A DNA stretch of 64,000 bases from Methylophilus sp. 14 (GTDB lineage: Bacteria > Pseudomonadota > Gammaproteobacteria > Burkholderiales > Methylophilaceae): positions 124,001-188,000 of the forward strand of contig NZ_JADKYS010000004.1 of the NCBI RefSeq assembly GCF_015354345.1, given 5' to 3'. A program made the translations under genes and the position numbers. The first letter of the stretch is position 1. Each line of letters begins with the position of its first letter. The notes below the pieces were generated by a model. That model was not told the origin of the DNA. It saw nothing but the letters and a program-made list of their open reading frames with translations, and ran no database searches. Positions 34,815 through 52,939 of the stretch are shown in pieces.

Positions 34815-34844
34815 TGGAGCCAATTGATTTGGCTCCATTTTTTT
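34815..34844 (+). terminator. Rho-independent terminator after ssb
   Basis: TGGAGCCAA-TTGAT-TTGGCTCCA (34815-34837) followed by seven or more T. Confidence 0.95.
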
Positions 34845-34849
34845 GTTTA

Positions 34850-35188: not shown

Positions 35189-35191
35189 ATC

Positions 35192-35323: not shown

Positions 35324-35469
35324 TTGGATTCGTTGGATTATTGGCTAAGATCAAGTAAGCACGCGGGTCTATGAGAATTTTACTGACATAACTTCGGGAA
35401 GTTCTCTGATGTTGCGAGTGCAATTAGGCCTATAAAATCGTTACATGTAATGCTGATGGAGAGTCAGGC

Positions 35470-35789: not shown

Positions 35790-35836
35790 CGGCACGACTC
35801 AATGCGACATCGGTGACAATCGCTACCCAAATTTAG

Positions 35837-35855
35837 TAAAAGCCTCTCAGGGCTT
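35837..35855 (-). terminator. Possible terminator of the left operon
   Basis: Minus strand AAGCC-CTGAGA-GGCTTTT overlaps the stop of the phosphorylase gene. The stem is only five bases, so this is tentative. Confidence 0.35.
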
Positions 35856-37374
35856 AAGGCTCTAACTTAACTATGTCACCTGCATCACGAATGTATGCCA
35901 ATGCATAATCCATTTCTGCACGTGTCTGTGCATGAATATGCAGCAATACTTGTCCCTTGAGAACCTCATCTCCCAATCTAATATTCAGATGTGCACCAGC
36001 TAATGATCGTTCCGGCGCTCCAGCAAGCTTGGCAGCCCTAGATAGTTTACGATTATCTATATGGACAACTCTTCCTGAGCTTGATGCTATTAACGGTTCA
36101 ATATACTCAGCTTGACCTGGCTCCCGTATACCTCCTTGAGCTAGACAAATACTCTTAAACTTTTCCCATGCTCGCCCGCTATCTATTGTTTTCAATGCCA
36201 ATTGCTGGCCTGTTCCTTCTGGAGTAACGCCTCCAATCTCAAGTACGGCTCCAGCGACTAACGCTGCTCGCTCTCGTAAATCAAGCGGGGCATGTGACTC
36301 TCGCCTTAATACTGCGAGAACATCACGCGCTTCTAGCGTAGGTCCGATTCCTCGGCCGATCGGCTGACTACCATCGGTGAACAAGCACCTTACAAACAAC
36401 CCAAATGCTGAAGCAGTCTCTGTAAGTCGTGAAGCTAGATGTTGGGCGGCCTCTTGAGTACGAATCTTAGCTGTAGATCCTATAGGGATATCAATAATGA
36501 CATGTGTGGAGCCCGCGGCAATCTTTTTGGATAGAATTGATGCAATCAATTGACCTTCAGTATCGATATCTAACTCATGTTCTATACGGATAAAGATATC
36601 GTCAGCCGGACTAAGATGCATCGCGCCTCCCCATGCCAGACAGCCTCCTTCTTTTTCTATTACGTCTTGCAATTTGGCGATATCCAGATCAACTGGCGTC
36701 AGTACCTCCATCGTATCAGCTGTACCAGCAGGGGACGTAATCGCCCTAGATGAGGTTTTCGGCATTGTCAGTCCATGAGCGGCAGCGATAGCTACCACAA
36801 TAGGTGTTGTACGATTCCCGGGTAACCCACCGATGCAATGCTTATCAACTACAATAGATTGATTCCACTTCAGGCGTTTGCCAACATCAACCATAGCGCG
36901 CGTGAGATGAATGGTTTCCTGACTATCCATGGGTAGAACTGCTGTAGCTGTCAGGAATGCCGAAAGGACTACATCGGTATATCTACCATCTACTACATCC
37001 TTTACGATATCCTGCAGCTCAGAATAATCTAGCCTATGTCCATGGATCCGACGGCGGATACTTGTCAATGAATTCAGTACAGGCGGATGCCGGACTTGCA
37101 CATGAGATCCTTCATCGATTTCAAGTGCTATCCAAGCCGCCTCTGAAAGAGCAACTTGGCCAACCTGCAAAAGATCACTGTCTATCTGATAAAGCAAAGC
37201 TTGAATCTCTCGGGAGCCTGCTGTAATCAAAACCTGAGATCTTGGTGCTAATCCTTCTGAGTGACAGACATGGCAATCTGTACGCATAATGGCGATTGGT
37301 TGATGCTGCGCGTGCAAGTGCATGCGAACCGCTTCTAATGTAGTTGAAGTTTGTGCTTTGACTTGAACGGTCAT
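35854..37374 (-). CDS. AMP phosphorylase / thymidine phosphorylase-like enzyme
   Basis: Pyrimidine-phosphorylase superfamily enzyme of the long class that includes archaeal AMP phosphorylase and bacterial putative thymidine phosphorylases. The start at 37374 (MTVQVKAQTS), overlapping the nuclease stop as ATGA, gives 506 residues. An N-terminal barrel domain of about 80-90 residues is present, which short bacterial DeoA lacks. Core motifs: VDKHCIGGLPGNRTTPIVV, KTSSRAITSPAGTADTMEVL and GGVTPEGTGQQLA. The substrate is either a nucleoside or a nucleoside 5'-monophosphate, giving ribose 1-phosphate or ribose 1,5-bisphosphate plus base. Sequence alone does not decide. It is the last gene of an eight-gene operon. 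Confidence 0.82.
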   Translation of the reverse strand: MTVQVKAQTSTTLEAVRMHLHAQHQPIAIMRTDCHVCHSEGLAPRSQVLITAGSREIQALLYQIDSDLLQVGQVALSEAAWIALEIDEGSHVQVRHPPVLNSLTSIRRRIHGHRLDYSELQDIVKDVVDGRYTDVVLSAFLTATAVLPMDSQETIHLTRAMVDVGKRLKWNQSIVVDKHCIGGLPGNRTTPIVVAIAAAHGLTMPKTSSRAITSPAGTADTMEVLTPVDLDIAKLQDVIEKEGGCLAWGGAMHLSPADDIFIRIEHELDIDTEGQLIASILSKKIAAGSTHVIIDIPIGSTAKIRTQEAAQHLASRLTETASAFGLFVRCLFTDGSQPIGRGIGPTLEARDVLAVLRRESHAPLDLRERAALVAGAVLEIGGVTPEGTGQQLALKTIDSGRAWEKFKSICLAQGGIREPGQAEYIEPLIASSSGRVVHIDNRKLSRAAKLAGAPERSLAGAHLNIRLGDEVLKGQVLLHIHAQTRAEMDYALAYIRDAGDIVKLEP

Positions 37375-38738
37375 AGAACATACTCCTGACCTGACAATGG
37401 CACACAAGCATTCCATCCGAGATCACGTTTTATACGCTCCCTCAGCGCTTCAGATGCATCAGGCTCTCCATGGACGATGAATACCTTCGTTGGAGGTCGG
37501 TAGAACCCTGATAACCATCGCAATAATTCATCGCTATCTGCATGGGCTGATAGCATTGGCAGATCGGCAACCTCTGCGTTCACAGGAATCCATTCACCGA
37601 ATATCTTCACTTCCTTTGCACCTTCAATGAGTTTACGGCCTCGTGTACCCGCTGCCTGAAAACCAGAGAACAACAAAGTATTCCGATGGTCAGGTCCAAA
37701 TGCAGCGATGTGATGCAGCACTCGACCTCCTGTCGCCATCCCGCTAGCAGAAAGTATGACTTTAGGATAATGATTAGCGGTAAGTGCTTTTGACTCCTCG
37801 ACATCCTGAACGTAAGTAACTTCGGACAAAGCCGCATGATATTCATCGAATGAGAGTCGATGATCGTTAGGGTATCTTTGCAAGAGTTCAGTTGCACTGG
37901 TTGCCATCGGACTATCTAAAAAAACCGGCACATTCTGCAATCGTCCGCTCTTCCGCAACAGCCACAAGTCGTATATCAGCGACTGAGCCCGTCCTACCGC
38001 AAAAGCAGGTATAACAACGGTTCCACCTCGTCGTACGGTACGCTCAATAGTTTTTCCTAATGCGTCGATCGCATCGGATCGATCATGATGTCGGTTGCCA
38101 TAAGTCGACTCTATGACAATATAATCGGCTTTTTCTACTGACTCCGGGTCTGGCATGATTCGATCATCATAACGTCCGAGGTCTCCGGAGAAGATTATGC
38201 GCTTACCTCCAATATCTATTTGGACAGTGGAAGCACCCAGGATATGACCTGCTCGCCTTAATAAGAATCGCCCATCTCCAGGCAATTCATTCGACTGATG
38301 CAAAGGAACCGTTTTAAAAAACTCAAGCGTACGTTCAGCATCCCGCACCCCATATAAAGGAAGTGCAGGCTTATGCTTTGATGAACCTTTCCGGTTGGCA
38401 AATTCAGCATCTTTTTCTTGTAGCCATGCACTATCTAACAAGATGAGTTCGGCTAGATCTCGGGTAGCCGCAGTAGAGAATATTTTTCCTCGAAATCCAT
38501 CTTTGACGAGCTTCGGAAGGTATCCACAATGATCAAGATGCGCGTGCGTCAGAATGACTGCGTCAATATCTTCAGCATTTATAGCTAACGGCTGCCAATT
38601 AAGTTCTCTGAGATTCTTTAAACCTTGAAATAAACCACAATCGATCAAGATACGGGTATTTCCATAGGTTAAAAGATGTTTAGAACCGGTTACAGTTCCT
38701 GCTCCGCCAAGGCTAGTTAATGAAAGCATATTGTGCAT
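37371..38738 (-). CDS. Metallo-beta-lactamase/beta-CASP RNA nuclease-like protein
   Basis: Zinc-dependent nuclease of the CPSF73/YSH1-like group. The 455 residues show the metallo-beta-lactamase motif LTHAHLDHCGYLPKL, further metal ligands in RAGHILGAS and IFSGDLGRYD, and the beta-CASP motifs PAFAVGRAQ, LSASGMATGGRV (with following HH), SAHADSDEL and VHGEP. Related bacterial enzymes cut single-stranded RNA. ATG at 38738, or 38729 if MLSL is used. The stop overlaps the phosphorylase start, so the two are translationally coupled. It is 20 bases downstream of the PRPP synthetase gene. The cellular RNA target is unknown. Confidence 0.85.
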   Translation of the reverse strand: MHNMLSLTSLGGAGTVTGSKHLLTYGNTRILIDCGLFQGLKNLRELNWQPLAINAEDIDAVILTHAHLDHCGYLPKLVKDGFRGKIFSTAATRDLAELILLDSAWLQEKDAEFANRKGSSKHKPALPLYGVRDAERTLEFFKTVPLHQSNELPGDGRFLLRRAGHILGASTVQIDIGGKRIIFSGDLGRYDDRIMPDPESVEKADYIVIESTYGNRHHDRSDAIDALGKTIERTVRRGGTVVIPAFAVGRAQSLIYDLWLLRKSGRLQNVPVFLDSPMATSATELLQRYPNDHRLSFDEYHAALSEVTYVQDVEESKALTANHYPKVILSASGMATGGRVLHHIAAFGPDHRNTLLFSGFQAAGTRGRKLIEGAKEVKIFGEWIPVNAEVADLPMLSAHADSDELLRWLSGFYRPPTKVFIVHGEPDASEALRERIKRDLGWNACVPLSGQEYVL

Positions 38739-38758
38739 AATCCTTTTAGTGTTCTTAA

Positions 38759-39646
38759 TCAGTCTTTCAAACCTTTAACAATCGCTTCCGCGAACAACGG
38801 GGTAAGCTTGATCCCGTTACTCAAATGTGGGACTGCTTCCGTGGAGGTAATCCTTGAAAATAAAGGGACCAACTCGTTCCATGCGTCATCTGCAAAAAGT
38901 GCATGTACTACTACACACTCTGGTTTCCGTAAACCTTGAGCAACAAGTTTCCGAGCCGCCACAGCAAGGGTCTTGCCGGAAGATGCGATGTCATCAACCA
39001 ATACTGGCGTACGATCCATAAATTCTGATAGATCAGGTACTTCGATATCGACACTCCGATCACCAAACCGCGTCTTATGTAACACTTTATGGGGAGCACC
39101 GATTCTCTTTGCTATCGCGCCAGCCCATTGCTCACTCTCTTCATCCGGTCCAATGATCAGAGGATCCTTGATATTCTGTGCGATCCAATCTGCTAACAAA
39201 GGAGCGGCATGCAGAGTCGCTGTGGGAATCGTATATAAACCAGAAAGCTGAGGATGACGATGGAGATGGGGGTCGATAGTGACCATGCTATCAAACACCC
39301 CTGAGATCAACTTCGCAAATGATAATGAAGTGACACACTCGCCTTCATGGAAGCGTTTATCCTGTCGCATATAAGCTAGATAGGGAGCGATCAGATTCAC
39401 CTCGCTGGCACCAAGATCACGAGCCGTCTCTGCAGCAAATATCAAGGATAGGAATTGAGGGTCGGGTTGAGACAATGTACATACCAGATCGACAGGTCTT
39501 CCGCTGGGGTTTCCATGCAGACGTACATAACTTTCACCATCAGGGAATCGACGTGCCTCGACCCGTCCCAATTCGCTATCGCATTGAGAGGCAAGTCTGG
39601 TCGCGAATATCTCATTCCCAGGAAGTGGTAAGACTAATCTTTGCAT
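38759..39646 (-). CDS. Ribose-phosphate pyrophosphokinase, archaeal-like short type
   Basis: Interconverts ribose 5-phosphate + ATP and PRPP + AMP. The 295 residues have the family segments ARRFPDGESYVRL, PYLAYMRQDKRFHEGE, TIDPHLHRH, LIIGPDEESEQWA and the PRPP-binding loop PVLVDDIASSGKTL. The wording of PYLAYMRQDKRF and the short length resemble class III enzymes of archaea more than the 310-320-residue housekeeping Prs. The housekeeping gene must be elsewhere, so this is a second, specialised copy. Operon position beside a nuclease and a phosphorylase suggests nucleotide salvage; direction of the reaction in the cell is unknown. Confidence 0.85.
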   Translation of the reverse strand: MQRLVLPLPGNEIFATRLASQCDSELGRVEARRFPDGESYVRLHGNPSGRPVDLVCTLSQPDPQFLSLIFAAETARDLGASEVNLIAPYLAYMRQDKRFHEGECVTSLSFAKLISGVFDSMVTIDPHLHRHPQLSGLYTIPTATLHAAPLLADWIAQNIKDPLIIGPDEESEQWAGAIAKRIGAPHKVLHKTRFGDRSVDIEVPDLSEFMDRTPVLVDDIASSGKTLAVAARKLVAQGLRKPECVVVHALFADDAWNELVPLFSRITSTEAVPHLSNGIKLTPLFAEAIVKGLKD

Positions 39647-39669
39647 GCTCTATCTTTCTCCTTTTATCA

Positions 39670-40734
39670 TCAGAAACTCCTGCCGATCGTGATCGAGCCG
39701 TACACGGGCGCATCATCTTGGCCGGAGAATTCGCGGGTACGATAATATTTCGCTACTGCCAAACGCCATTGATCTTTATAGAATGCGAAGCCATAACCCA
39801 GATCAGCCACGACTGCTTTCTTATCGACACTATGGCTTGAACTAAAGGTATTTCCATCCAGAGTAATATCGTGCAATACCCACCTTGCATCGAAAGCGGC
39901 AAAAAAGTGACCGTTCCATTGACCGTCACCTGCAGCATGCACTGGTGCGGTATTCTCTCCTGCTGGTCGTAGTGGTGCGGTCCCAAAATCATCAGGTAGG
40001 TGCCAACCGAAGCGCCACTCACCCCCAAAGTTCGCATAGGTAGCAAAATTGCCCAGACTACCGCCCCAATGCCTTATGTAATCCCAACTCCAACCGGAAT
40101 AGAGAGGAGAACTCACCACACGTTTACGACGTTCATGCAAAAGCTGTACAACGGGTTCATTGCGTAGTTGATGATCCCATCCATAGAATTTGTCTACTCC
40201 GATGAGGTCATGCCACCAGTTTTGGGTATGCTCTGCACCAGATGCCGGACCTACCACACCGAAACGTATCTGCGAGGTCCGAAGGTGATCTTCGCTACGG
40301 GCGTTGTAACCTATGCTAAAAAGTAGAGCGCCTGCATAAGGACGATCATTCCGGATGAGATCTCTCCGCTCATTGTCTGTCGGTGTGTACATTACCTGAC
40401 CAATACCCAAGGTCATGTTTTGCTCGTCGAAGCCGTCAGGCTGTAATCTAGCCAAAAACTGATTCAGCCTCTGAACCAGAGTGGGAAGGCATGGATCGTT
40501 AATATAATCGGTCAGGTTGGGAGAGACCCAGCTGACTAGGAATCCATTGGTATAACCTTGATCCTGACCTTTACCGCCGAACATGTCGTTGTCTACACGC
40601 AGATTCACAGTGCCAGACGAATTGATTGGAGATTCACCAGAGCATGTGACACCTGCTGCTAGCGAGACAGACTGGTAGCTCATAAGACATATCCAGCAAG
40701 AGAGGATACGAAAGATTGAAAATGCTCTGATCAT
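39670..40734 (-). CDS. LpxR-like lipid A 3'-O-deacylase (DUF2219)
   Basis: Outer-membrane beta-barrel hydrolase family that removes the 3' acyloxyacyl chain of lipid A. After a signal peptide (to about residue 27, SVSLAAG) the first strand carries RVDNDMFGGKGQDQGYTNG, with the Asn/Asp residues of the LpxR calcium and active site. DRPYAGALL and a final SITIGRSF with C-terminal Phe follow. At 354 residues it is slightly longer than Salmonella LpxR (about 320). It lies between the ABC permease and the PRPP synthetase, so it appears to belong to the same regulon and may remodel the outer membrane when the efflux system is induced. Confidence 0.8.
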   Translation of the reverse strand: MIRAFSIFRILSCWICLMSYQSVSLAAGVTCSGESPINSSGTVNLRVDNDMFGGKGQDQGYTNGFLVSWVSPNLTDYINDPCLPTLVQRLNQFLARLQPDGFDEQNMTLGIGQVMYTPTDNERRDLIRNDRPYAGALLFSIGYNARSEDHLRTSQIRFGVVGPASGAEHTQNWWHDLIGVDKFYGWDHQLRNEPVVQLLHERRKRVVSSPLYSGWSWDYIRHWGGSLGNFATYANFGGEWRFGWHLPDDFGTAPLRPAGENTAPVHAAGDGQWNGHFFAAFDARWVLHDITLDGNTFSSSHSVDKKAVVADLGYGFAFYKDQWRLAVAKYYRTREFSGQDDAPVYGSITIGRSF

Positions 40735-40746
40735 AGGCAGTCTCTA

Positions 40747-41877
40747 CTAAGCCATTTGTGCAATGGTTTTGCGGAACCTTGCTAGAGATAGTGAGAACAG
40801 GACTCCGCCTATCAAGGCTAGACAAAGAAATGGTTTCCACACGACTTCTATGCCGGCACCACGATATAGAATGGCCTGACCAAGCTCAACGAAATGTGTG
40901 GTCGGGGCGGCCAGCATGAGTGTCTGAACCAGCTCAGGCATACTCTCTCGTGGGGTGTTGCCACCAGAAAGCATATCTAGTGGCATGAGCGTCAACATGA
41001 GCAGCATGCCGAATTGAGGCATGTTTCGGGCGAGTGTCGCAAGGAATATTCCCATCGACGTTGTTGCGAAAAGGTGCAGCGTAGTACCTACGAAGAATAA
41101 AGGTAGCGACCCCTCAATTGGGATACCTAAAAATCCCCGGATCATAAAATTCATAGACAGGATGGATGCGATTAAGACTACAAGTCCCATCGACCATATT
41201 TTGGATAACATGATCTCCGTCGGTGTGACGGGCATGACTAGCAGATGTTCGACAGTGCCATGTTCACGTTCACGGATGAGCGCTGCTCCAGTCAACACGA
41301 TAGATAACATCGTGATGTGATTGACGATCTGCATGAGTGCTGCAAACCATGACTTATTCAAAGAAGGATTGAAGCGCATGCGGACTACGGTATCTATGGG
41401 TAATGCAGTAGCGCCGCGATAACGTTGTACAAACTCACTGATCTCACCCATGACGATCTGTTGTATGGAGCCATTACCGGTGAATGCCTGACTCATGCGC
41501 GTTGCATCGATATTGAGTTGGAGTTCCGGCGATCTTCCTGCCAATACGTTTTGCTGGAACTTGGGTGGAATCACCAATACGAATGTATATTTACCCTCAT
41601 CCATTACTTTATCCACTTCAGGCAGTTGGATCAGTTGGGGTGGATTGAAATAGGGGGGATAAAAAGCTGAGACGATACGTTGGGATAGAGCCGAAACGTC
41701 TTCATCCACGATCGCTATCGGCGCATTCTGAAGGGTCTCCGGCTGAGATGTGGATGATAGGTACAGTGAGTAGGTGAACACGTACACTATCAATACGAGC
41801 ATCATTGGATCGCGCCAAAGACTCCAGATCTCCTTCACGCCCAAACGATAGATATTATCTAAATGTTTGCTCTTCAT
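40747..41877 (-). CDS. ABC-2 type permease (YhhJ-like)
   Basis: Inner-membrane half of an ABC exporter. One N-terminal helix is followed by a large extracytoplasmic loop and a C-terminal block of about five helices, the ABC-2 layout. Family motifs include IREREHGTVEHLLVMPVTP and SGGNTPRESMPELVQ. At 376 residues it matches YhhJ-type partners of RbbA-like ATPases. It starts one base after the ATPase/permease gene's stop, so they are coupled. Substrate unknown. Confidence 0.9.
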   Translation of the reverse strand: MKSKHLDNIYRLGVKEIWSLWRDPMMLVLIVYVFTYSLYLSSTSQPETLQNAPIAIVDEDVSALSQRIVSAFYPPYFNPPQLIQLPEVDKVMDEGKYTFVLVIPPKFQQNVLAGRSPELQLNIDATRMSQAFTGNGSIQQIVMGEISEFVQRYRGATALPIDTVVRMRFNPSLNKSWFAALMQIVNHITMLSIVLTGAALIREREHGTVEHLLVMPVTPTEIMLSKIWSMGLVVLIASILSMNFMIRGFLGIPIEGSLPLFFVGTTLHLFATTSMGIFLATLARNMPQFGMLLMLTLMPLDMLSGGNTPRESMPELVQTLMLAAPTTHFVELGQAILYRGAGIEVVWKPFLCLALIGGVLFSLSLARFRKTIAQMA

Positions 41878-41878
41878 C

Positions 41879-44629
41879 TCAATGCTCCTGCTTTCTTACA
41901 AGAAGGATAGAGACAGAGATGATGACAAGGGAAGATATCGCAATCGGTAGGATCGAAGCTGCAATATCATTGAAATGAAGTGCTTTGCTGAATATACCTC
42001 GACTGATTAAAACCATGTGACTTACCGGGTAGACCTCTCCTATGATTCTTGAGAAGCCTTGCATCGATGAGACAGGATTGATGATGCCGGAATACTGAAT
42101 CGCAGGGATCATTGTGCCGATCATGGTAAAGAACATCGCTGCGATCTGGCTTTTAGTCACAGAAGAAGCGAGCAGTCCCATACCTGTAGCAGAGAAGCTG
42201 AAAACGAGTGCTGCCAGACTCAACGTGATAAAACTGCCTGTGATCGGTACTCCAAATATCGTGATCGCAAGCAATACCATTAAAAGGAAATTGACCATGG
42301 CCAATGCCACGTATGGCAATTGCTTGCCAAGAATGAATTCCATCCGAGTCACGGGAGTCACGTAAAGATTGATGATTGACCCGGTCTCCTTCTCACGGAC
42401 GACAGCAAGTGCAGTCAACATAGCGGGTAACATCAAGAGCAACATAGGAATGACTGCAGGGACGATTGCAGGCAGACTGCGCACATCAGGATTGTATCGG
42501 TAGCGGGTCTCGAAGCTTGCTGTTAATGGCGGTGTCCCTCCATTACGCTCGACTTGTTGAGTGCTCAACCAGTGTTGATGCATTCCTTGCACATAGCCAT
42601 TGATGGTTTCGGCACGCTGAGGCATAGCCCCATCAATCCATATCCCGATCTGGACCTCATTACCCTTGAGAGCTTTCTGAGCAAATCCTGTGGGAATCTC
42701 TATCGCGAGTGATAGCTCTCCACTTCGCATGCGTTTATCAAGTTCGTCGTAATCACTGATAGCAGGTTGCTCGACAAAATATCGTGATCCTGAAAGTTGT
42801 AGAGCGTAATCCCGACTCAAGGAGGTCTGATCCCGATCAAGGATCGCATAGCGCAAATCCTCAACGTCCATGCTGATGCCAAAACCGATGGCGAACATCA
42901 GAATGATTGACCCACCAAGGGCAAGAGCAGCTCTGATTGGATCGCGTTGTAGCTCAAGCGTCTCACGCCACAGATAACTAATCATCCGCCGAAGACTGAA
43001 GATCGAATGCCGGGTGGGATTTGTTTGGTTCATGGAAGGTGACGGGGCAGGCTTCTCCTCTGCCTCAGGTGAGGATGGGACTGCATTGCCGCCGCCGGCA
43101 TCGATCAGGTATCCGATGAAAGCCTCTTCAAGCGTGCTGGCATGACGCTTTTTTACTAGTGATGCAGGTGTATCGCTATCTAGTACTTTCCCCGCATGCA
43201 TCATCGACATGCGATCACATCTCTCAGCCTCATTCATGAAGTGAGTCGAAATGAATATGGTGACTTTATCTCGTCTGGATAACTCGATCAAAAGTTGCCA
43301 GAAGGCATCGCGTGCGACCGGATCCACTCCAGAGGTCGGCTCATCAAGAATGAGTAACTCTGGCTTGTGGACCATTGCTACAGCCAAAGAAAGGCGTTGT
43401 CGTATGCCTAATGGAAGACTATCCGGTATCTGACTCATGCAATCACCAAGACCGAAGCGTTCTGCCATTTCGCGAATACGATAAGGGATCACGTTCTCAG
43501 GGACATGGAATAATCTGGCATGCAAGACTAAGTTCTGCTCTACGGTCAGCTCCCCATACAGGGAGAAAGCCTGAGACATGTAACCTACACGACGACGCGT
43601 ATCGATATCATTTGGATCGACTTCATGACCGAATAGCCAAGCTTTGCCATCACTGGCTGGTAGTAATCCGGTAAGCATCTTCATGGTGGTCGTCTTGCCA
43701 CAGCCGTTGGAACCCAAGAAACCGAATATCTCACCGCGGCGAATGCGGAATGAGACTTTGTCGACAGCCACAAAATCGCCAAATCGCATCGTGAGGTCTT
43801 TTGCCTCGATCGCAATATCATCTGCGTCCACATTTAGAGGAGGAATCTCCACCGATCTGTAGTCGCGTTTTTTGTCGATCGGGAGTAAGGCGATGAATGC
43901 AGACTCCAGTGAGTTTGTCGAAGTCTGGGCTAATAATTCGGCAGGTGTACCAGTAGCCAGGATCTTGCCTTCATCCATGGCAATCAGCCAATCAAAGTCT
44001 TGAGCCTCATCCATATAGGCGGTGGCTACAATGACGCTCATACTTGGACGTTGGCGTCTCATCCGTGTGATCAGATCCCAGAACTGTGCCCGCGCCAATG
44101 GATCCACACCGGTCGTAGGTTCATCAAGGATCAATAGGTCAGGGTCATGTATCAAGGCGCAGCAAAGCCCGAGTTTTTGCTTCATGCCTCCGGACAATTT
44201 TCCAGCGGGACGGGATAGAAATTTCTGTAGTCCAGTCGCATGTGTCAGATCATCGATACGACGACGACGCTCTCTAGCGTCATGTCCGAATAGTCGTGCG
44301 AAGAACTGGAGATTCTCCTCGACCGAAAGTGTCGGATAAAGATTACGGCCTAGACCTTGTGGCATGTAAGCGATGCGTGGGCAAACGATGTCCCGATGTT
44401 TAGGATCCCGTATATCTCCACCCAGAACTTCTACAGTACCCTCCTGGACTTTACGGGCTCCAGCGATCAGAGATAGCAAGCTGGATTTACCCACGCCATC
44501 AGGACCAATCAAACCAACCACACATCCTGAGGGGATATCCTGATCCAGTCCATCGATCGCGATCACCTCTTTATAGTTGAGGCGCACCCCCTGAAGTCGG
44601 ATAACCGGTTGTGATGTTCCGGGCACCAT
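41879..44629 (-). CDS. Fused double ABC ATPase and ABC-2 permease (RbbA/YhiH-like)
   Basis: The 916 residues contain two nucleotide-binding domains and a C-terminal ABC-2 membrane domain. The first domain has Walker [10 protein letters not shown] and signature [11 protein letters not shown] with [12 protein letters not shown]. The second has [11 protein letters not shown] and the deviating signature [11 protein letters not shown] with [12 protein letters not shown]. The E. coli namesake was described as a ribosome-bound ATPase, but the yhiI-rbbA-yhhJ gene order and the membrane domain point to an exporter with adaptor and outer-membrane channel. That order is reproduced here with an added NodT-type channel. 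Confidence 0.92.
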
Positions 44630-44632
44630 AGG

Positions 44633-45727
44633 TTATTCAGGCTTTGTTTGCAGGGAAGGATTGATCTTCAGGGATTCTGGCCATTCAGCCTTGTGATCTA
44701 CTCTCAACCACGCGACCCCTGGGACACCGGTTTTTACTTGTTCCAGATGTTGGCGAAGAAGATCAGGAGATATCTGGGCACGTACGCGAAACATCAGTTT
44801 TTGACGTTCACTCGCTGTTTCCACGGTCTTCGGCGTGAATTGAGCCTGACTAGCCACAAAAGAGACTTTTGCTGGGATGATGACGCCTGGTATCGCATCC
44901 AGTACAAGACGGACTTCGCTGCCTAGTGCGATCCTGCCAGCCACTGTTTCAGGTACGAAGAAGGTCATAGATACATCAGATAGATCTAACATATTGATGA
45001 CACGGCCACCTGCACCAAGGACCTCCCCAGGTTGAGCTACTCTGATCTGCACACGTCCATCACGTGGAGCTTTCAATTCGCTATCGGATATCTCGGCAGC
45101 TATCCGGCTGATCGTTGCCTTGGCCGCATTAGCGCGCGCCTCTGAACCAGTCCATTGCGCCTTTGCAGCCACTACAGCAGATTCAGCGGCAATGGTCTGA
45201 GCTTTTGCTGCGGTTACTGCTGCTTCAGCGCTGCGTGTACGCGCTTTGTCATCGTCCAATTCTTGCAATGATGCTGCACCCTCATGACTCAAGGTCTCTG
45301 AGCGAGTCAGACGTCTATGAGCCGCATCGAGCTCAGCTTCGCGTTGGGCTACCTGTGCTTTGACTGCCGCCACATCACTCTCGCGTAGACTGATTTGGGC
45401 CTTAGCTGCTGCAATCGCATGCAATGCCTCCTGATGCCCTGCTACTGCCTCTTCATATTGAGCTTGCAAGGTGGTGATCTGCATATTCGCCAATGTTTGG
45501 CCAGCCTGAACGAAATCACCCTCTCTTACCATAACCGACTCGACTCGTCCTGGCAGCTTTGTTGAGACATCCACTTCTGTTGCCTCAATACGACCATTCC
45601 CGCTAACAAAGCCCTCCATCGATTCACTGGCTTTATACAATGACCAGCCATACCAACCGCCGATGATGGCTAGAACAATGATTGCCAGAATGGTGAGTTG
45701 TTTATTTGATGGTGTTGGAAATGCCAT
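44633..45727 (-). CDS. HlyD-family periplasmic adaptor (YhiI-like)
   Basis: Periplasmic adaptor linking the ABC exporter to the outer-membrane channel. The start MAFPTPSNKQLTIL at 45727 gives 364 residues and puts the single membrane anchor (ILAIIVLAIIGGWYGWSL) at the N-terminus. The ATG at 45775 would overlap the preceding gene. Lipoyl halves are around GRVESVMVREGDFVQAGQTLA and LKAPRDGRVQIRVAQPGEVL, separated by an Ala/Glu-rich coiled coil of about 110 residues. Three bases separate it from the ATPase gene. Confidence 0.92.
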   Translation of the reverse strand: MAFPTPSNKQLTILAIIVLAIIGGWYGWSLYKASESMEGFVSGNGRIEATEVDVSTKLPGRVESVMVREGDFVQAGQTLANMQITTLQAQYEEAVAGHQEALHAIAAAKAQISLRESDVAAVKAQVAQREAELDAAHRRLTRSETLSHEGAASLQELDDDKARTRSAEAAVTAAKAQTIAAESAVVAAKAQWTGSEARANAAKATISRIAAEISDSELKAPRDGRVQIRVAQPGEVLGAGGRVINMLDLSDVSMTFFVPETVAGRIALGSEVRLVLDAIPGVIIPAKVSFVASQAQFTPKTVETASERQKLMFRVRAQISPDLLRQHLEQVKTGVPGVAWLRVDHKAEWPESLKINPSLQTKPE

Positions 45728-45737
45728 AGATTTGACC

Positions 45738-47189
45738 TTAAGGTGTAGAGGTGGTGATAGGGTCATTTTGACCATTGATTGGGAGGTCTATCGCGCCTCC
45801 ACCAAGTGCGGTGTATAGCGCGATGTGACTCGACAATAGATTGCGTCGCATCTGAACCAATTGTTGCTGGACCTCCAGCAATTCACGCTGGGCATCTAGA
45901 ACTTCAAGATAAGTCGCGGCACCGTTGTCATATCTAAGTTGTGCTAATCTGGCTCTAACGGATTGCGCCTCTAGGGATTGGCGTTGAATGGCGATTTGTT
46001 CGGTTAGCCATTTTTTTGAAGCCAATGCATCAGATACTTCACGGAATGCAACCTGAATCGTCCGTTCGTATTCAGCTATGGCCATATTGCTACGAACTTG
46101 AGCAAGATCAAGGCTAGCCTGCCTGCGCCCCGCATCAAAGATAGGCAGGGATATCGTTGGTACAAAGGACCATGCCCGACTGCCATGGTCGAACAAACCG
46201 TCTAGCTCAGAACTAGCGGTACCAAAGCTTCCTACCAATGTGATTCGCGGGAAGAAAGCAGCTCGGGCTGCCCGAATGTTCGCTTGCCTGCTTTTAAGGC
46301 GATATTCTGCAGCAACGATGTCTGGACGGACGGCCAGCAGATCAGATGGCAGTCCCACACGTAATGGTGCAAAGACTGCATCATCACGTAATCGGGTGTT
46401 GGACATCGGAGATAACTCAATAGGGACACCTATGAGTTGAGATATGGCGTGAGCCTGTATGGCACGAGCCTGTTGCAATTGCGCTCCCAGACTCCGCGCC
46501 TGTAACAGAAGCGTTTCGACCTGACTCAATTCCAGTTTGGAAACGGAGCCCACTTCGTTACGGCGCCGAAAGATCCTTGCCGACTCTTCACGGGTAGCGA
46601 TCGTTTCGCTTGCCAACGCTATCCTCTCGTCGAGTTCGCGGAGTCTTAGATAAGCGTTCGCAACTTCTGAGATAAGGGAGATGCGAGTAGCACGCTGTGC
46701 TGCTTCTGTCGCAAGGTACTCCTGAAGGGCTGCATCCTTGAGATTTCGTACTCTTCCCCAAAGATCCAACTCCCATGTATTCAGGCCTACATAAGCCTCA
46801 TAATCCCCCGTGACCAATGAGCGACCGGTCGGGTTAAGATCACCTGGCAATCGGCTTCGTGCCGCTTGTGCACCTAAGCCGATCGATGGGAATAGTTCCG
46901 CACGCTGTATCCCATAAGAAGCTCTTGACTCTTGAACACGTAAGAGTGCTAGACGGAGATCCTTATTGTTGGTGAGCGCTGAATCGATGAGTGAGGTAAG
47001 TTGGGAGTCTACAAAATAGTCTCGCCACTGCAAGTCCTTTGCCGAGACGCCATCAGCGTCGTTGAAGGAAACATCCGCAGGCCATGATCTGGTGACCGAT
47101 AGATCAGGAACTGATGGTTTCTCATGCAACGTGGAGCAGCCTGTAAGAACAGCAGCTAGTGCAACGTAATTAAGAAACCTGCTCATCAT
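45738..47189 (-). CDS. NodT-family outer-membrane efflux lipoprotein
   Basis: TolC-like channel of the RND/ABC outer-membrane factor class. Start at MMSRFLNYVALAAVLTGC (47189 or 47186) gives a lipoprotein signal with lipobox LTGC; the longer frame from 47279 adds 30 hydrophilic residues that would spoil it. Two repeated OEP domains are visible, with the family motifs RAELFPSIGLGAQ, GTASSELDGLFDHG and LDAQRELLEVQQQLV. It is the first gene of the minus-strand operon, beside the operator region. Confidence 0.92.
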   Translation of the reverse strand: MMSRFLNYVALAAVLTGCSTLHEKPSVPDLSVTRSWPADVSFNDADGVSAKDLQWRDYFVDSQLTSLIDSALTNNKDLRLALLRVQESRASYGIQRAELFPSIGLGAQAARSRLPGDLNPTGRSLVTGDYEAYVGLNTWELDLWGRVRNLKDAALQEYLATEAAQRATRISLISEVANAYLRLRELDERIALASETIATREESARIFRRRNEVGSVSKLELSQVETLLLQARSLGAQLQQARAIQAHAISQLIGVPIELSPMSNTRLRDDAVFAPLRVGLPSDLLAVRPDIVAAEYRLKSRQANIRAARAAFFPRITLVGSFGTASSELDGLFDHGSRAWSFVPTISLPIFDAGRRQASLDLAQVRSNMAIAEYERTIQVAFREVSDALASKKWLTEQIAIQRQSLEAQSVRARLAQLRYDNGAATYLEVLDAQRELLEVQQQLVQMRRNLLSSHIALYTALGGGAIDLPINGQNDPITTSTP

Positions 47190-47311
47190 AGGCTTATGTA
47201 CACCATCCATTAATGGATGTGGTTTGCCATTAAGTGACTGTTTCTCCACATCCTGAGTTCGAGATCCATAAAGCTGCATTTGATTCCCAACAGTAAAACT
47301 GACGCAATTTA

Positions 47312-47329
47312 AACGATTAATCTATCGTT
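47312..47329. promoter_or_regulatory. TetR-type operator 1 (left operon side)
   Basis: AACGATTAATCTATCGTT, a dyad of AACGAT/ATCGTT half-sites. It is the exact reverse complement of operator 2. Read toward the left operon it is immediately followed by TTAAAT, a possible -10 hexamer. Confidence 0.75.
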
Positions 47330-47342
47330 AGTGAGTTTCAGT

Positions 47343-47373
47343 TTATCACAAACGATAGATTAATCGTTATAAT
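47343..47373 (+). promoter_or_regulatory. Promoter of the right (tetR-gltS-xfp-ackA) operon
   Basis: A perfect TATAAT (47368-47373) with candidate -35 TTATCA (47343-47348) or ATCACA (47345-47350). Operator 2 fills the spacer, so repressor binding would block polymerase. Confidence 0.55.
47351..47368. promoter_or_regulatory. TetR-type operator 2 (right operon side)
   Basis: AACGATAGATTAATCGTT, identical to operator 1 on the other strand; centres are 39 bases apart. It lies between the -35 and -10 regions of the right promoter. Confidence 0.78.
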
Positions 47374-47454
47374 CAAAACAAGTATCGCCTAAGAGTCATG
47401 TGCGCAAACTTTCCGTGTTAACGTGTACTCCCCATTAGATTTGGAATCCATTGA

Positions 47455-48138
47455 ATGCCTCAGGTTTTAGAGAAATCACATCTTAAAAAGCGTACACGTC
47501 TTGCGCCGGAAGTACGTAAGCAGCTGATCCTTGATGCGGCACTGACTGAGTTCAGTGAGCGTGGATATGACGGTGCCAGTACGACATTGATCGCCAAAAG
47601 GGCTGGCTTGGCACAGGCGGGTATATATGCGCACTTCAAAAGCAAGGAAGACATATTAGGCGCATTACTTTTTGAGGTACTCATGCCTCGTTGGGCTCCG
47701 TGGCTCGATCCAGAGCGACCTTTGGATGAGAAGGCTTTAGACCAATGGATCGATAATACCCATGATTCGATAGCTGATCCCAAATTTCAGGCTGTGATTC
47801 GAATCTTGATCTCAGATGGGTTCTGATTCCCGAAAATGATCAAAGAGTGGCACAAAAATGTCATAAGGCCTTATTTCGCGGCACAGCAACAAGCCGCAGA
47901 CAAGCTAGTCAGTGAAGAGAAGATGCAGTCGAATGTGCTGACAGACGTTTTCCTGATGGCAATATCACCAGTGGTTCATGTCCTCATGATGCATCTGGTT
48001 CTTGGCACTGAAGAGGATGGAGCGAAAGAAGAGATTCAGACTTTACGAGAGGCGCATAGAAGGATGTTCAAAGAGTTGATCGGAAGCAGGCTGGCAAATA
48101 ATGGTTCTGCAAATGACTCCAATGGCGGTAACACCTAG
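47455..48138 (+). pseudogene. TetR-family regulator interrupted by an in-frame TGA
   Basis: The N-terminal DNA-binding domain is intact (ILDAALTEFSERGYDGASTT, IAKRAGLAQAGIYAHFKSK). After 123 codons the frame stops at TGA (47824-47826). Translation continues in the same frame FPKMIKEWHKNVIRPYF through a normal TetR C-terminal domain to 48138. Relatives usually have Arg before FPEL/FPKM, so a CGA-to-TGA change is the simple explanation. The truncated protein would bind DNA poorly because it lacks most of the dimer interface. Divergent from the efflux operon, with two operators between. Sequencing error or readthrough cannot be excluded. Confidence 0.75.
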
Positions 48139-48169
48139 AGCTCGATATGGGTCACTCCGGTAAAGACTG

Positions 48170-49414
48170 ATGTCTATGAGTTCAGTGATCAACAATATCT
48201 ATGGACACTCTTTGGCATTGAGTGGATTTGTTAGTTTAACCATCGCCATTCTGTTGTTGTTTATTGGTAAAGGTGTCGTCGCCAGAACCGCTTTGATGAG
48301 GGAATACGGTATACCAGAGTCTATGGTTGGCGGATTACTTTGTGCGATCCTAGTATGTGTATTGCATTACACGATCAGTTTAGATACCTCTTTTGAACTG
48401 GATGCCCGGGATGATCTTCTACTTTATTTCTTTGCGGCACTTGGATTAAGTTCGAATATCCGGCAGCTACCTAGCGGTGGTAAGTATCTTGTGCTGCTGC
48501 TTTTTCTATCAACGATCTTCATTATTTTGCAGAATTCCTTGGGAATGATGATGGCATCTTTATTTGGTATGGATCCACATGCCGGATTATTGGTGGGTTC
48601 CATCTCTCTTACTGGTGGAGTGGGTACTACGCTTGCATGGGCCCCGCATTTCGAGGGACAACTTGGTATCGATTCTGCAAGTGAGTTAGGAATCGCAGCT
48701 AACATGGTCGGTATGGTTTCTGCCTGCTTCATCGGTGGACCGATTGCCAGTTGGTTGATGCGGCGTCATTCGGTCAAACCATCAGCAGATTCAGAACTGG
48801 AAGTGGGGAAGCTTTTCAAAAAAGAACTGACTAGCCAGCTCGATTATTACGGAGTGCTGTTAGCTATTTTCTGGCTGAATATCGCTCTTATCTTGGGATC
48901 TAGCATCAGTGAATTGATCAAATTGACTGACCTGAATCTTCCAGGATTCGTTGGCTGCTTGATAGCCGGGACATTACTTCGATCTATCGGTGACTTATTG
49001 CTTCCTAATGGAGGACGGCTCTGGCGATTCAATGAGATGAAATCTGGAATAGCTTTGATTTCAGACATTAGTCTCGGGTTATTTATCACGATGGCGATCA
49101 TGGGTCTCCAACTGTGGGAGATTCAGCCTATTCTCGGATTCATAACAGTCACGATGTCATTGCAGATAATACTGACCATACTTTTTACGGTTTTTCTCGT
49201 ATTCCGGTTAATGGGGCGCGATTATGAAGCAACGGTCGTTTGTTCTGGTTTTGGCGGGATCGCCTTGGGATCCACAGCAACGGCTGTCGCTAACATGACC
49301 GCTGTATCTCGCCAATATGGCGCAGCACCTCGCGCCTTCCTGATAGTGCCGTTGGTATGCGGATTCTTTATCGACCTTATCAATGCCCTGATTATTGGTC
49401 TTATGTCTGATTGA
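48170..49414 (+). CDS. GltS-type sodium/glutamate symporter family protein
   Basis: Inner-membrane transporter, 414 residues, about ten to twelve spans in two inverted halves. Family signatures are YGIPESMVGGLLCAI near residue 45, SISLTGGVGTTLAWAP in the first re-entrant loop and GFGGIALGSTATAVANM in the second. E. coli GltS takes up glutamate with sodium; distant members may carry other carboxylates. The start is MSMSSVINN at 48170 (or the second Met). It lies 31 bases after tetR and 12 before xfp, so it is part of the right operon; glutamate uptake has no obvious link to phosphoketolase. Confidence 0.8.
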   Translation: MSMSSVINNIYGHSLALSGFVSLTIAILLLFIGKGVVARTALMREYGIPESMVGGLLCAILVCVLHYTISLDTSFELDARDDLLLYFFAALGLSSNIRQLPSGGKYLVLLLFLSTIFIILQNSLGMMMASLFGMDPHAGLLVGSISLTGGVGTTLAWAPHFEGQLGIDSASELGIAANMVGMVSACFIGGPIASWLMRRHSVKPSADSELEVGKLFKKELTSQLDYYGVLLAIFWLNIALILGSSISELIKLTDLNLPGFVGCLIAGTLLRSIGDLLLPNGGRLWRFNEMKSGIALISDISLGLFITMAIMGLQLWEIQPILGFITVTMSLQIILTILFTVFLVFRLMGRDYEATVVCSGFGGIALGSTATAVANMTAVSRQYGAAPRAFLIVPLVCGFFIDLINALIIGLMSD

Positions 49415-49426
49415 GTTGGAGGATTT

Positions 49427-51799
49427 ATGAGCAAGACCCTGTCACCTGAACTGTTAGAATCAATGCACGCATACTGGCGTGCTGCAAACTACCTTTCAGT
49501 CGGGCAGATATACCTTCAGCGTAACCCGCTACTAAGATCACCGCTCGCATTAGAGCACATAAAACCCCGATTACTGGGGCATTGGGGCACGACACCGGGC
49601 CTCAATATGCTGTACGTCCATTTGAATCGCCTGATCAAAAATAATGATCTCAACATGATCTACATCATCGGTCCAGGGCATGGCGGTCCTGGTATCGTCG
49701 CTAATACTTATCTCGAAGGCTCCTATACTGAACACTTCCCCGCGATAGAACGTAATACGAATGGGATGGAGCGTCTGTTTAGACAGTTTTCATGGCCATC
49801 CGGTATTCCAAGCCATGTTGCACCAGAAACGCCCGGTTCGATACATGAAGGTGGCGAACTGGGCTATTCACTAGCTCATGCATATGGTGCTGCCTTTGAT
49901 AACCCGGATCTAATCGTGAGTTGTGTGATTGGTGATGGGGAGGCCGAAACAGGTGCATTAGCTACTAGCTGGCACTCCAACAAATTCCTCAATCCTGCCA
50001 CGGATGGTGCGGTTCTGCCGATATTACATTTGAACGGGTTCAAGATCGCCAACCCCACGATACTCTCGCGTATCAGTCATGATGAACTACGTGATCTCAT
50101 GCGCGGATATGGTTATGAACCATATTTTGTTGAGGGGGATGAACCGATGTTCGTTCATCAAAAACTCGCAACCACCTTAGATCAGGTACTTATTGAGATT
50201 AAAAATATCCAAACCCAAGCGAGAACAAAACCCAAAGGCGCCCCACTGGAAAGGCCGCGTTGGCCGATGATCGTATTCCGTACTCCCAAAGGGTGGACAG
50301 GGCCTAAGTTCGTCGATCACAAGCCTTCAGAGGGTACATGGAGATCTCATCAGGTACCGATCTCGGACTTCAAGAATCCTGAACATATTGTGTTGCTGGA
50401 GGAGTGGCTTAAAAGCTATAAAGCCGAAGAACTGTTCGATGAGAACGGAAAGTTTCGGGAGGATCTGGCAGCATTAGCTCCTACAGGTCGGCGACGCATG
50501 GGTTCAAATCCTCATGCGAATGGTGGCATTTTGACACAGCCACTTTCCTTGCCATCCTTTGCAGATTATGCGCTCGATATCGGCAAACCAGGTAGTTCAA
50601 AAGGCGAGGCCACAAGGAATCTGGGTAAATACCTTTCTGCAGTACTCAGTCTTAATCAGCTGAAGCAGAACTTTCGTATTTTTGGCCCCGACGAGACAGC
50701 TTCAAATCGATTGGATGGGGTGTTTGAAGTCACAAATAAAAGATGGATGGCTGATACTCAGGAGCAGGACACGAATCTTGATACTGATGGTCGTGTCATG
50801 GAAGTGCTCAGTGAGCATCTATGTCAAGGTTGGCTAGAAGGTTATCTGCTTACAGGTAGACATGGTTTCTTTTCCTGTTATGAAGCCTTTATCCATATCA
50901 TCGACTCCATGTTCAACCAACATGCGAAATGGTTAAAGATCACAAGATCGATTCCATGGCGTAAGCCGATACCTTCTCTGAACTATCTTTTAACCTCACA
51001 TGTATGGCGTCAGGATCACAATGGTTTTTCACATCAGGACCCCGGTTTTATCGATCACGTTGCGAATAAAAGATCAGAAGTAGTCAGGATATATCTTCCG
51101 CCAGATGCGAATACTCTTCTCTCTGTCACCGACCACTGTCTGCGAAGTCAAAATTACATCAATGTCATCGTGGCCGGCAAACAGCCGGAGTGGCAGTGGC
51201 TTAGTATCGACGAGGCCGTGAAGCATTGCACAGCTGGTGCCGGTATCTGGCAATGGGCAAGTAATGATGAAGGCGATCCGGATGTAGTGATGGCATGTGC
51301 TGGCGATGTTCCTACCGTCGAGGCGCTGGCGGCTGTTACCTTGTTGCGCAGTTATGTACCGGACATCCGTATCAGAGTAGTCAATGTCGTAGACCTCATG
51401 GTTCTGCAACCGCGATCTCAACACCCGCATGGTATGGAAGACCATGAGTTCGATGCGATGTTTACTAAGGACAGACCCGTAATCTTTGCCTTTCATGGGT
51501 ACCCCGCATTGATCCACAAACTCACTTACAAGCGCCATAACCACGAGAATATTCATGTGCGTGGTTATATGGAGGAAGGCACGACAACGACACCATTCGA
51601 CATGGTCGTCATCAATAATCTGGATAGATATCAACTAGCATTGGATGCTATCAAACGTATTCCTAGATTCAGTTCTCTGGTCGGAGCAGAGACAGCACGT
51701 TACTGGACTAAGATGGAGCGACATAAACTGTATGTCAGTGAGCATGGTGAAGATATGCCGGAGGTACAAGAGTGGAAATGGGATCCCAAGATGAATTGA
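49427..51799 (+). CDS. xfp: Xylulose-5-phosphate/fructose-6-phosphate phosphoketolase
   Basis: Thiamine diphosphate enzyme splitting xylulose 5-phosphate (or fructose 6-phosphate) with phosphate to acetyl phosphate and glyceraldehyde 3-phosphate (or erythrose 4-phosphate). The 790-residue length is standard. Motifs: [51 protein letters not shown] and the cofactor-binding [20 protein letters not shown]. Further on are [19 protein letters not shown] and [10 protein letters not shown]. The ATG follows GGAGGATTT, a very strong ribosome site. Its last codons overlap the acetate kinase start. Confidence 0.97.
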
Positions 51800-52875
51800 T
51801 CGTCCTCGCACTGAATGTCGGATCCTCCTCACTGAAGTTTGGCGTCTATAAACTTGTTGGATTCCAACTGGAAAAGCTTCATGGGGAAAGCATCCAAGGT
51901 ACGGATACTCAGAGTGCGATCGATCATATATTCAAATCGCTTACAGATAAGGATCTACCAAGCCCCGATGTCATTGGTCACCGGATCGTGCACGGAGGCT
52001 TGCTTATCCGACGGCACTGTCTGATCGACAGTAATATCATCCGACAATTACAGAAGGCCGCAGACTTTGCGCCTTTGCATAATGAGAAGGCGCTGGCGCT
52101 GATACAGGCTGTCATTGATAGATTGCCGACCATTCCTCAGATGGCCTGTCTGGATACGGTGTTTCATGCTGATCTCCCTGATATCAGCCGTAGTCTCCCG
52201 ATTCCCAGTTCATTGCGCAGTGAAGGTATCAAACGATATGGATTCCATGGTTTGTCGTGTGAATCCATTGTTCAGCAATTGGGCAAGGATCTACCACCCA
52301 GAGTGATCGTAGCTCATTTAGGAAATGGCGTCAGTGTGACTGCCATCAAGGATGGTATATCGATTGATACGAGCATGAGTCTTACTCCTAGCGGAGGGGC
52401 CATCATGGGCAGTCGTTCAGGAGATATCGACCCAGGAGTATTACTCTACCTTCTACGAAAGAAGGATCTGAGTACGATCGAGTTGGAATATCTGATAGAC
52501 AAGAGAGCTGGACTACTGGGTATCTCTGGTGTCAGTAGTGACATGCGTGAGTTACATGCTTCTGCGGAGAACAATGAAGATGTATTACTTGCCATACGGA
52601 TGTTTTGTTATTCGGTCGGCAAGCTTATCGCCAGCATGGCCGTTGCTTTGAAGGGTGCGGATCTGCTCGTGTTTACAGGGGGTATCGGAGAGCATGACCC
52701 TGAGGTACGGGAGCGGATCTGTCAGCATCTGGAATGGATGGACATCAGACTGAACCACCGCTTGAATCAGGAAAACAACAGGACGATCAGTGACGATACA
52801 TCATTGATCGCTATTGAGGTCCTGCCCTCAAAAGAAGAAGATCAGATCGCTCGTCATGCTGCAAGGTTATGTTAA
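51778..52875 (+). CDS. ackA: Acetate kinase
   Basis: Converts acetyl phosphate + ADP to acetate + ATP. The ATG at 51778 gives 365 residues, somewhat short of the usual 395-400; a GTG at 51772 is also possible. Motifs: [70 protein letters not shown] and [13 protein letters not shown]. It starts inside the end of xfp, so product is matched to phosphoketolase output and together they make one ATP per acetyl phosphate. Confidence 0.96.
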
Positions 52876-52939
52876 GAATTTAACATTCAGTGAAAGTCCG
52901 CCATCGTAACGAAATAGCTTGATTGAAGAGGAAATCTAC

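Follow-up and report, generated by a model that had tools for sequence, protein, structure and literature searches.

Can a bacterium draw energy from its own RNA by means of one set of neighbouring genes? The question is raised by a 64,000-nucleotide stretch of Methylophilus sp. 14 (contig NZ_JADKYS010000004.1; the whole stretch is called the window here), in which genes for nucleotide breakdown lie close to genes for phosphoketolase and acetate kinase. A sequence-only reading had placed five gene families at 35854..52875 and joined them into an energy salvage route, and profile-model matches locate all five there. Three are on the minus strand: an archaeal-type phosphorylase resembling those of nucleoside monophosphates (NMP) or adenosine monophosphate (AMP) (35854..37416; NF003338, TIGR02645); a beta-CASP metallo-beta-lactamase protein with an RMMBL domain, a putative RNase, whose gene overlaps the phosphorylase start (37371..38738); and a homologue of 5-phosphoribosyl 1-pyrophosphate (PRPP) synthetase with an altered phosphate loop, GPDEESEQW (38759..39646; NF005537, 408.5 bits, cut-off 322). 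The plus strand carries a classical phosphoketolase (49427..51799; NF003619, 1441.7 bits, cut-off 962) and an acetate kinase that starts with GTG and overlaps the phosphoketolase end (51772..52875; TIGR00016, 313.2 bits, cut-off 293.4). We read these genes as a low-oxygen cassette that may draw energy from nucleotides in the order NMP, ribose 1,5-bisphosphate, pentose phosphate, acetyl phosphate and ATP, and put the chances of this at about even. On the best reading, the window holds one copy, acquired laterally and rearranged, of a low-oxygen cassette that is widespread in bacteria.

In the proposed route the beta-CASP protein would help to break down RNA and the phosphorylase, judging by its family, would use phosphate to split NMP into ribose 1,5-bisphosphate and the free base. 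The PRPP homologue might then transfer a group to AMP, either the phosphate on C1 of ribose 1,5-bisphosphate or the pyrophosphate of PRPP, and so leave ribose 5-phosphate. RpiA, which the genome encodes twice, and Rpe, also present, would supply xylulose 5-phosphate. Phosphoketolase would give acetyl phosphate and glyceraldehyde 3-phosphate, and acetate kinase would give ATP and acetate, both being the known reactions of these families. No description of this pathway was found in the literature searched, which mostly did not extend to subscription papers.

Three known systems come close, one of them the Bradyrhizobium operons described below. The archaeal NMP shunt of the pentose bisphosphate pathway, as set out for Thermococcus in passages of PMC9700705, consists of NMP phosphorylase, ribose-1,5-bisphosphate isomerase and RuBisCO, and starts with a homologous NMP phosphorylase making ribose 1,5-bisphosphate. 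The partner genes in the window genome are instead the PRPP-synthetase homologue and phosphoketolase; isomerase and RuBisCO were not found there. Lactic acid bacteria drain nucleic-acid pentose through the same pair, phosphoketolase and acetate kinase, by way of nucleoside phosphorylases and ribose 1-phosphate, in contrast to the NMP phosphorylase cassette of the window. If the proposed route is correct, many Pseudomonadota would possess a dedicated low-oxygen route from their own RNA to ATP, so that bacteria would have a parallel to the archaeal NMP shunt, with acetate in place of RuBisCO at its end. It would be relevant to the survival of aerobes when oxygen is suddenly lost and would give testable functions to families whose present names are generic or questionable: "thymidine phosphorylase family protein", "ribose-phosphate pyrophosphokinase" and, for the divergent phosphoketolase XDIV described below, "xylulose 5-phosphate 3-epimerase".

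The phosphorylase and its likely product

The window phosphorylase scores 654.6 bits with NF003338 (cut-off 434) and 567.7 bits with TIGR02645 (cut-off 434.6). Thymidine and pyrimidine phosphorylase models reach 142-196 bits on the same protein, against 486-655 bits for archaeal-type models. In a tree, the archaeal AMP phosphorylase 4ga5 and 41 bacterial archaeal-type sequences separate from nine thymidine-type sequences with 100/100 support, and the motifs GxPGN(K/R)T and KTSSRAITSxAGTAD are common to the window enzyme and 4ga5. By sequence and tree the window enzyme appears to belong with the AMP/NMP phosphorylases; this apparent grouping of a bacterial cassette phosphorylase with the archaeal AMP phosphorylase is new.

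The likely product is indicated by relatives fused to PhnN, a kinase of ribose 1,5-bisphosphate. Four such fusions were found (L043:8749-10680, L128:7001-9154, L129:7001-8818 and L130:7037-9163; fetched loci and sampled genomes carry the prefixes L and G). The L043 protein and two plasmid fusion proteins exceed the cut-offs of both TIGR02322 (PhnN) and NF003338, and in the fourth, from Paraburkholderia 22B1P, 93% of the fusion query is covered in one piece. The four form one clade beside the cassette-enzyme clades. Their presence in the same family lends support, short of proof, to ribose 1,5-bisphosphate being the family-wide product.

The fusion loci have partners of their own. nadC lies directly upstream of the fusion in L128 and L130, with a gene for a tripartite tricarboxylate transporter (TTT) substrate-binding protein (L128) or a tripartite ATP-independent periplasmic (TRAP) transporter (L130) alongside. 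This points to a possible route from quinolinate to nicotinate in which PRPP is recycled: NadC would form nicotinate mononucleotide (NaMN), the phosphorylase would release nicotinate and ribose 1,5-bisphosphate, and PhnN would make PRPP again. nadC, phnN and the quinolinate-binding Bug27 are neighbours in Variovorax (PMC11452294), and the passages of that paper drawn on here make no mention of a PhnN-phosphorylase fusion. No fusion was seen in the long open frames at the phosphorylases of G268, G416, G485 and G495, for which the queries were cassette genes, glyceraldehyde-3-phosphate dehydrogenase (GAPDH) and PhaC, PhnN not being queried.

The PRPP-synthetase homologue and the steps around it

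What could take ribose 1,5-bisphosphate further? The sequence-only reading had left this step missing, and missing it stays after searches of the window genome: PhnN was not found (the best match is guanylate kinase), the RuBisCO large subunit gave no PF00016 match, an IF-2B search found no ribose-1,5-bisphosphate isomerase, and DeoB had no match. The sole IF-2B protein, considered as the isomerase, is MtnA (TIGR00512, 410.6 bits, cut-off 279; TIGR00511, 166.7 bits, cut-off 314.1). The altered PRPP homologue is the prime suspect for this step.

The alteration lies in the phosphate loop, which we take to hold the terminal phosphate (a role not given in the PRPS literature searched). In 1u9y this loop reads APDKGALEF. 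The Gly of the PDxG loop is kept in the five solved enzymes compared and in a separate housekeeping Prs (SPDVGG) encoded elsewhere in the window genome. We aligned the window protein with those of 78 of 92 loci; 78 of these 79 sequences could be aligned at the loop and one is gapped. All 78 alignable copies read GPDxESxQW or nearly so (Glu in 78, Ser in 77, Gln in 78, Trp in 78), an invariant Gly-to-Glu change and a new observation. The remaining catalytic motifs are all present in the window protein: FPDxE, RQD, His, the flexible loop (K..R) and DDxxSxGxT. All 78 copies keep the loop Lys as well as FPDxE, RQD and His, and 77 keep the loop Arg (one gapped); in DDxxSxGxT the first Asp is absent from one copy, and Ala replaces Gly in 22.

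Ordinary pyrophosphate transfer by the cassette homologue therefore seems doubtful. The sequence-only reading had the reverse PRPP synthetase reaction (PRPP + AMP giving ribose 5-phosphate + ATP) as a normal step, and because the phosphate loop is altered in every alignable copy that step loses its support. A speculative and unlikely proposal sees in the homologue a new kind of enzyme, one transferring a single phosphate instead of pyrophosphate, so that ribose 1,5-bisphosphate and AMP would give ribose 5-phosphate and ADP. The invariant Glu would close the loop for the terminal phosphate, the energy of the RNA glycosidic bond would be saved as ADP and then as ATP through adenylate kinase, and ribose 5-phosphate would feed phosphoketolase. 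The whole would amount to a complete bacterial RNA-to-acetate fermentation, spread in part by conjugative plasmids. We note that in Rhizobium rosettiformans p2, a plasmid typed as conjugative, arcA, argF, arcC and a gene annotated as adenylate kinase lie upstream of the cassette (L131:590-4386), a region with several ATP-yielding anaerobic routes side by side.

The beta-CASP protein matches Pfam Beta-Casp (118 bits) and RMMBL (68 bits). We infer RNA cutting and do not assign it, because every NCBIfam model listed (16/16) scores below its cut-off. The window phosphoketolase has the family score and the full catalytic His/Glu set. Acetate kinase passes TIGR00016; the equivalog NF005462 is not reached (316.9 against 486 bits).

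A divergent phosphoketolase, XDIV, within the operon of the seven nearest relatives is a new observation. All 18 complete XDIV copies keep the catalytic positions H64, H97, H142, H320, E479, Y501, N549, H553 and K605; all 18 have Asn for Q321, Asn for Q546 and Lys for H548, and R442 is variable. The five classical copies compared keep every one of the positions named. XDIV is probably an active phosphoketolase that prefers a different substrate. Of seven plasmid records examined, six call it xylulose 5-phosphate 3-epimerase (L131:8311-10680, L134:5284-7653, L135:5180-7567, L136:7929-10349, L137:7977-10304 and L138:7899-10379) and the seventh calls it phosphoketolase; the epimerase label looks like a misannotation. 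A third phosphoketolase-like family, matching weakly at about 45-56 bits in open frames of about 740-990 amino acids, occurs in G043, G028, G045, G047, G050, G079, G082, G088, G091 and G095, and in G050 and G095 the classical gene is 7-8 kb away from it. Archaeal-type (type II) GAPDH genes form a cluster of 10 loci near cassettes, confirmed by NCBIfam at L118:4114-5148 and, on an Acidovorax plasmid, at L136:11783-12826. They could serve the use of glyceraldehyde 3-phosphate derived from phosphoketolase.

Recurrence, possible low-oxygen control and other explanations

Do the five families keep company elsewhere? We examined 80 named loci, the best of at least 572 matches chosen for similarity to the window phosphorylase, a set that is not a random sample and that favours the window's subtype because the best matches were taken. 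At least 4 kb of flank was present on both sides in 59 loci, and less than 4 kb on one side in 21. The PRPP homologue occurs in 67, beta-CASP in 59, phosphoketolase in 29, acetate kinase in 13 and all five families in nine, so the neighbourhood does recur. The phosphoketolase is XDIV in 25 loci and classical in four, and in 28 it lies on the same strand within 5 kb; all 13 acetate kinase loci also carry it. Gene order varies, from beta-CASP, phosphorylase, acetate kinase, XDIV, PRPP homologue (L089, L100) to phosphorylase, PRPP homologue, phosphoketolase (L143) and to phosphorylase, PRPP homologue with acetate kinase and phosphoketolase opposite (L147). On a quick tree of 93 phosphorylases, built with a simple model and with the window scored as linked, phosphoketolase linkage changes 12 times and involves two phosphoketolase families. 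At least 10 changes are forced by starred branches; L039 was scored as linked by a partial hit with no PF03894 match there, and the count may otherwise be one lower. In an independent-pairs test, acetate kinase and phosphoketolase went in the same direction in about 5 of 11 pairs and never in opposite ones.

In a phylum sample of 398 genomes, phosphoketolase is present in 15 of the 45 genomes with the phosphorylase and in 48 of the 353 without it. The two genes are within about 21 kb in seven of the 15 (G000, G122, G194, G238, G268, G325 and G402). In four of these seven (G122, G194, G268 and G402) they share a strand and are at most 3 kb apart. The proposed link of the five families is upheld in part, by recurrence though not by enrichment within the order. 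Beta-CASP is common in the order (66/120 at E <= 1e-60), so its presence alone says little. The trio of phosphorylase, PRPP homologue and beta-CASP is also found in Bacteroidota, with no phosphoketolase near it in the loci fetched.

Plasmids allowed the reverse comparison. Among the 40 listed of 201 plasmid records matching XDIV, 15 have at least 49% identity (the other listed rows have 27% or less), and 12 of these 15 have the phosphorylase within 1.6 kb. Of the other three, XDIV adjoins acetate kinase in Alteromonas RKMC-009 and lies about 3 kb from it in Acidovorax T1, with type II GAPDH nearby; no phosphorylase is annotated in the 8-kb flanks of either. In the third, P. zucineum, XDIV has 6-phosphogluconate dehydrogenase as its neighbour and the phosphorylase is 58 kb away. 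For the PRPP homologue, at least 49 of the 60 plasmid records listed of 98 have the phosphorylase within about 4 kb; it is farther in two (Cupriavidus) and the listings leave nine undecided.

Regulation was compared with Bradyrhizobium diazoefficiens as given in two papers, PMC6515984 and PMC9104804, where the same five families are present by product name, the only basis of their identification. At 0.5% O2 the proteins rise by log2 values of 2.9 (metallo-beta-lactamase), 4.4 (PRPP homologue), 2.1 (phosphorylase) and 4.3 (phosphoketolase) in Table 2 of PMC6515984; the next column, which we read as transcripts, gives 15.4-, 7.7-, 5.1- and 8.2-fold, in the same order. Co-expression of these four families at low oxygen is therefore seen in that organism, and acetate kinase is FixK2-activated (PMC9104804). 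The operons bll2518-bll2517 (phosphoketolase, acetate kinase) and bll3117-bll3116-bll3115 (the trio of phosphorylase, PRPP homologue and metallo-beta-lactamase genes) are separate units, each with a predicted FixK2 box (PMC9104804). Without fixK2 at 0.5% O2, Table 2 of that paper gives fold changes of -10.0 and -10.2 for bll2518-bll2517, -6.6 for bll3117 and -30.6 for bll3115; bll3116 is named within the FixK2-box operon, and no value was found for it. The genes lowered are thus those of phosphoketolase, acetate kinase, phosphorylase and metallo-beta-lactamase. One regulator, FixK2, thus acts on both operons in these data, in agreement with the common signal that the sequence-only reading supposed. 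The FixK2-type separate operons differ from the window, whose control looks TetR-like.

In the window the space between the two divergent operons is a 175-nucleotide promoter/operator region (47280..47454) with an inverted repeat at 47307-47373, the 28-nucleotide arms of which (47307-47334 and 47346-47373) are 89% complementary. A TetR regulator and a divergent pump around such a region are a usual layout. Because the repeat, the TetR-type gene and the divergent pump found here follow it, the simplest reading is that 47280-47454 is the operator of a TetR-type efflux-pump operon. It does not look like a single control region driving the nucleotide pathway, as had been proposed. Matches to an FNR-type box (TTGATNNNNATCAA, at most one mismatch) number 10 in the whole window, where 3.4 would be expected; those closest to this region, at 46098 and 51621, are both intragenic. 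Across 93 sequences (92 loci and the window), boxes with at least 9/10 positions number 114 against 51.6 from a first-order Markov model, not placed relative to promoters. This excess is a weak hint of low-oxygen control.

Several of these results weigh against a low-oxygen cassette that draws energy from nucleotides. The window phosphorylase misses the TIGR03327 AMP_phos equivalog cut-off (486.2 against 535 bits), and the searches for PhnN, RuBisCO, isomerase and DeoB found no known ribose 1,5-bisphosphate enzyme in the genome. The 80 named loci are selected best matches to the window's subtype, and even so 51 of them have no phosphoketolase within the fetched DNA. The independent-pairs test has a median p of 0.06, short of 0.05 by itself. 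The phylum comparison gives a Fisher p of 0.0018, a value that ignores relatedness among genomes; at least two of its linked genomes, G268 and G402, appear identical to the named loci L060 and L061, so the sample overlaps those loci. Within the order there is no co-occurrence enrichment (phosphoketolase in 5/13 phosphorylase genomes against 48/107 others). The Bradyrhizobium genes are not marked as FixK2 targets in the table of PMC6515984, which has no bacteroid value for them, and FixK2 control thus differs between the tables of the two papers. The window operons are divergent, the region between them resembles a pump operator, and 47280-47454 contains no FNR-type box by the pattern above.

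In another explanation the genes share a low-oxygen stress island and regulator and not one pathway, phosphoketolase and acetate kinase serving general pentose or hexose fermentation and the trio its own RNA or nucleotide turnover. The neighbourhoods do hold universal stress proteins, PhaC, P-type ATPases, alcohol dehydrogenase, arginine deiminase genes and cytochrome bd; the 51 loci in which phosphoketolase was not found and the distant P. zucineum phosphorylase fit as well. Harder to reconcile with a shared island are the 28 loci with a same-strand phosphoketolase close to the phosphorylase, and a linkage that changed at least 10 times, with two phosphoketolase families in the same role. We regard the island explanation as possible, if somewhat unlikely. 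It is improbable that the phosphorylase and PRPP homologue run towards salvage, or together balance AMP and PRPP, with no energy drawn. No other pair is so tightly linked: 66 of the 80 loci have the two on the same strand at most 5 kb apart, and on plasmids they are mostly close together. From what is known of the families their reactions are reversible in principle; yet a housekeeping Prs is already in the genome, and in Bradyrhizobium the two are co-regulated at low oxygen with phosphoketolase and acetate kinase (PMC9104804). Very improbable indeed is an ordinary thymidine or pyrimidine nucleoside phosphorylase yielding ribose or deoxyribose 1-phosphate. NF003338 bears the name thymidine phosphorylase, but the model scores and the fully supported tree split point away from it, as does the lack of a DeoB match in the genome for ribose 1-phosphate use.

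Neighbouring genes and origin of the island

Gene spacing suggests two divergently transcribed units. The left unit runs from 47279 down to 35854 on the minus strand with gaps of at most 23 nucleotides, or overlaps. Its first four genes encode an efflux system by NCBIfam matches (40747..47279): an outer-membrane factor (45738-47279), a HlyD-type adaptor (44633-45775), an RbbA-like fused ATP-binding cassette (ABC) protein (41879-44629; NF033858, 1550 bits, cut-off 1050) and an ABC permease (40747-41877). An LpxR-type outer-membrane protein (39670..40734; Pfam LpxR, 355.6 bits) follows, 23 nucleotides upstream of the PRPP homologue, which is itself 20 nucleotides from beta-CASP; the phosphorylase is the final gene. 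The left operon of the sequence-only reading contained the three nucleotide genes and omitted the leading efflux system and LpxR. Likewise its right operon had phosphoketolase and acetate kinase and omitted the two genes before them, a TetR-type regulator (47455..48138, plus strand) and the sodium/glutamate symporter GltS (48170..49414, plus strand; TIGR00210, 366.8 bits, cut-off 310.75). After acetate kinase the next same-strand gene encodes a heavy-metal P-type ATPase (52919..55126; TIGR01511, 573.8 bits, cut-off 397), a class found in 33 of the 93 stretches clustered. LpxR is also upstream of the PRPP homologue, and GltS near the cassette, in L038, L044 and L046. Related pump genes precede the PRPP homologue in L060 (apparently the same as L148), where a 70% identical RbbA-like gene comes before the cassette, and less similar ones in L144.

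At 47824-47826 an in-frame TGA breaks the TetR-type gene, whether through mutation or through an error in sequencing. The pieces of the gene (47455-47826 and 47836-48138) share one frame, with TetR_N in the first and no Pfam family match in the second. If the TGA is real, the pump operon may be derepressed.

GC content at third codon positions is 35-53% in the 12 island genes examined and 55-66% in the seven flanking genes examined, a contrast consistent with lateral acquisition of the island. A phosphorylase above the NF003338 cut-off occurs in none of three other same-family genomes and in 13 of 120 genomes of the order, including that of the window. The nearest phosphorylases on the tree are from Pseudomonas putida 31753, Tolumonas osonensis, the order genome G064 and the metagenome-assembled genome (MAG) KLAP190, followed by Achromobacter, Luteimonas and a Lysobacteraceae MAG. 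In all seven of these relatives XDIV is directly before beta-CASP; in six it has the PRPP homologue on its other side, and in the seventh, L045, the contig starts inside XDIV. The window phosphoketolase is closest, among those compared, to the L146 copy (74% identity), which adjoins acetate kinase. Two same-family genomes have phosphoketolases 64-65% identical to the window copy, with neither acetate kinase nor phosphorylase seen in the 19.5 kb fetched around them. It would appear that the window lost XDIV and that the classical phosphoketolase-acetate kinase pair, in the divergent unit, stands in its place. Between ssb and the phosphorylase, about 1 kb at 41.9% GC (34782-35853), with no gene of 90 amino acids or more, may mark an edge of the island.

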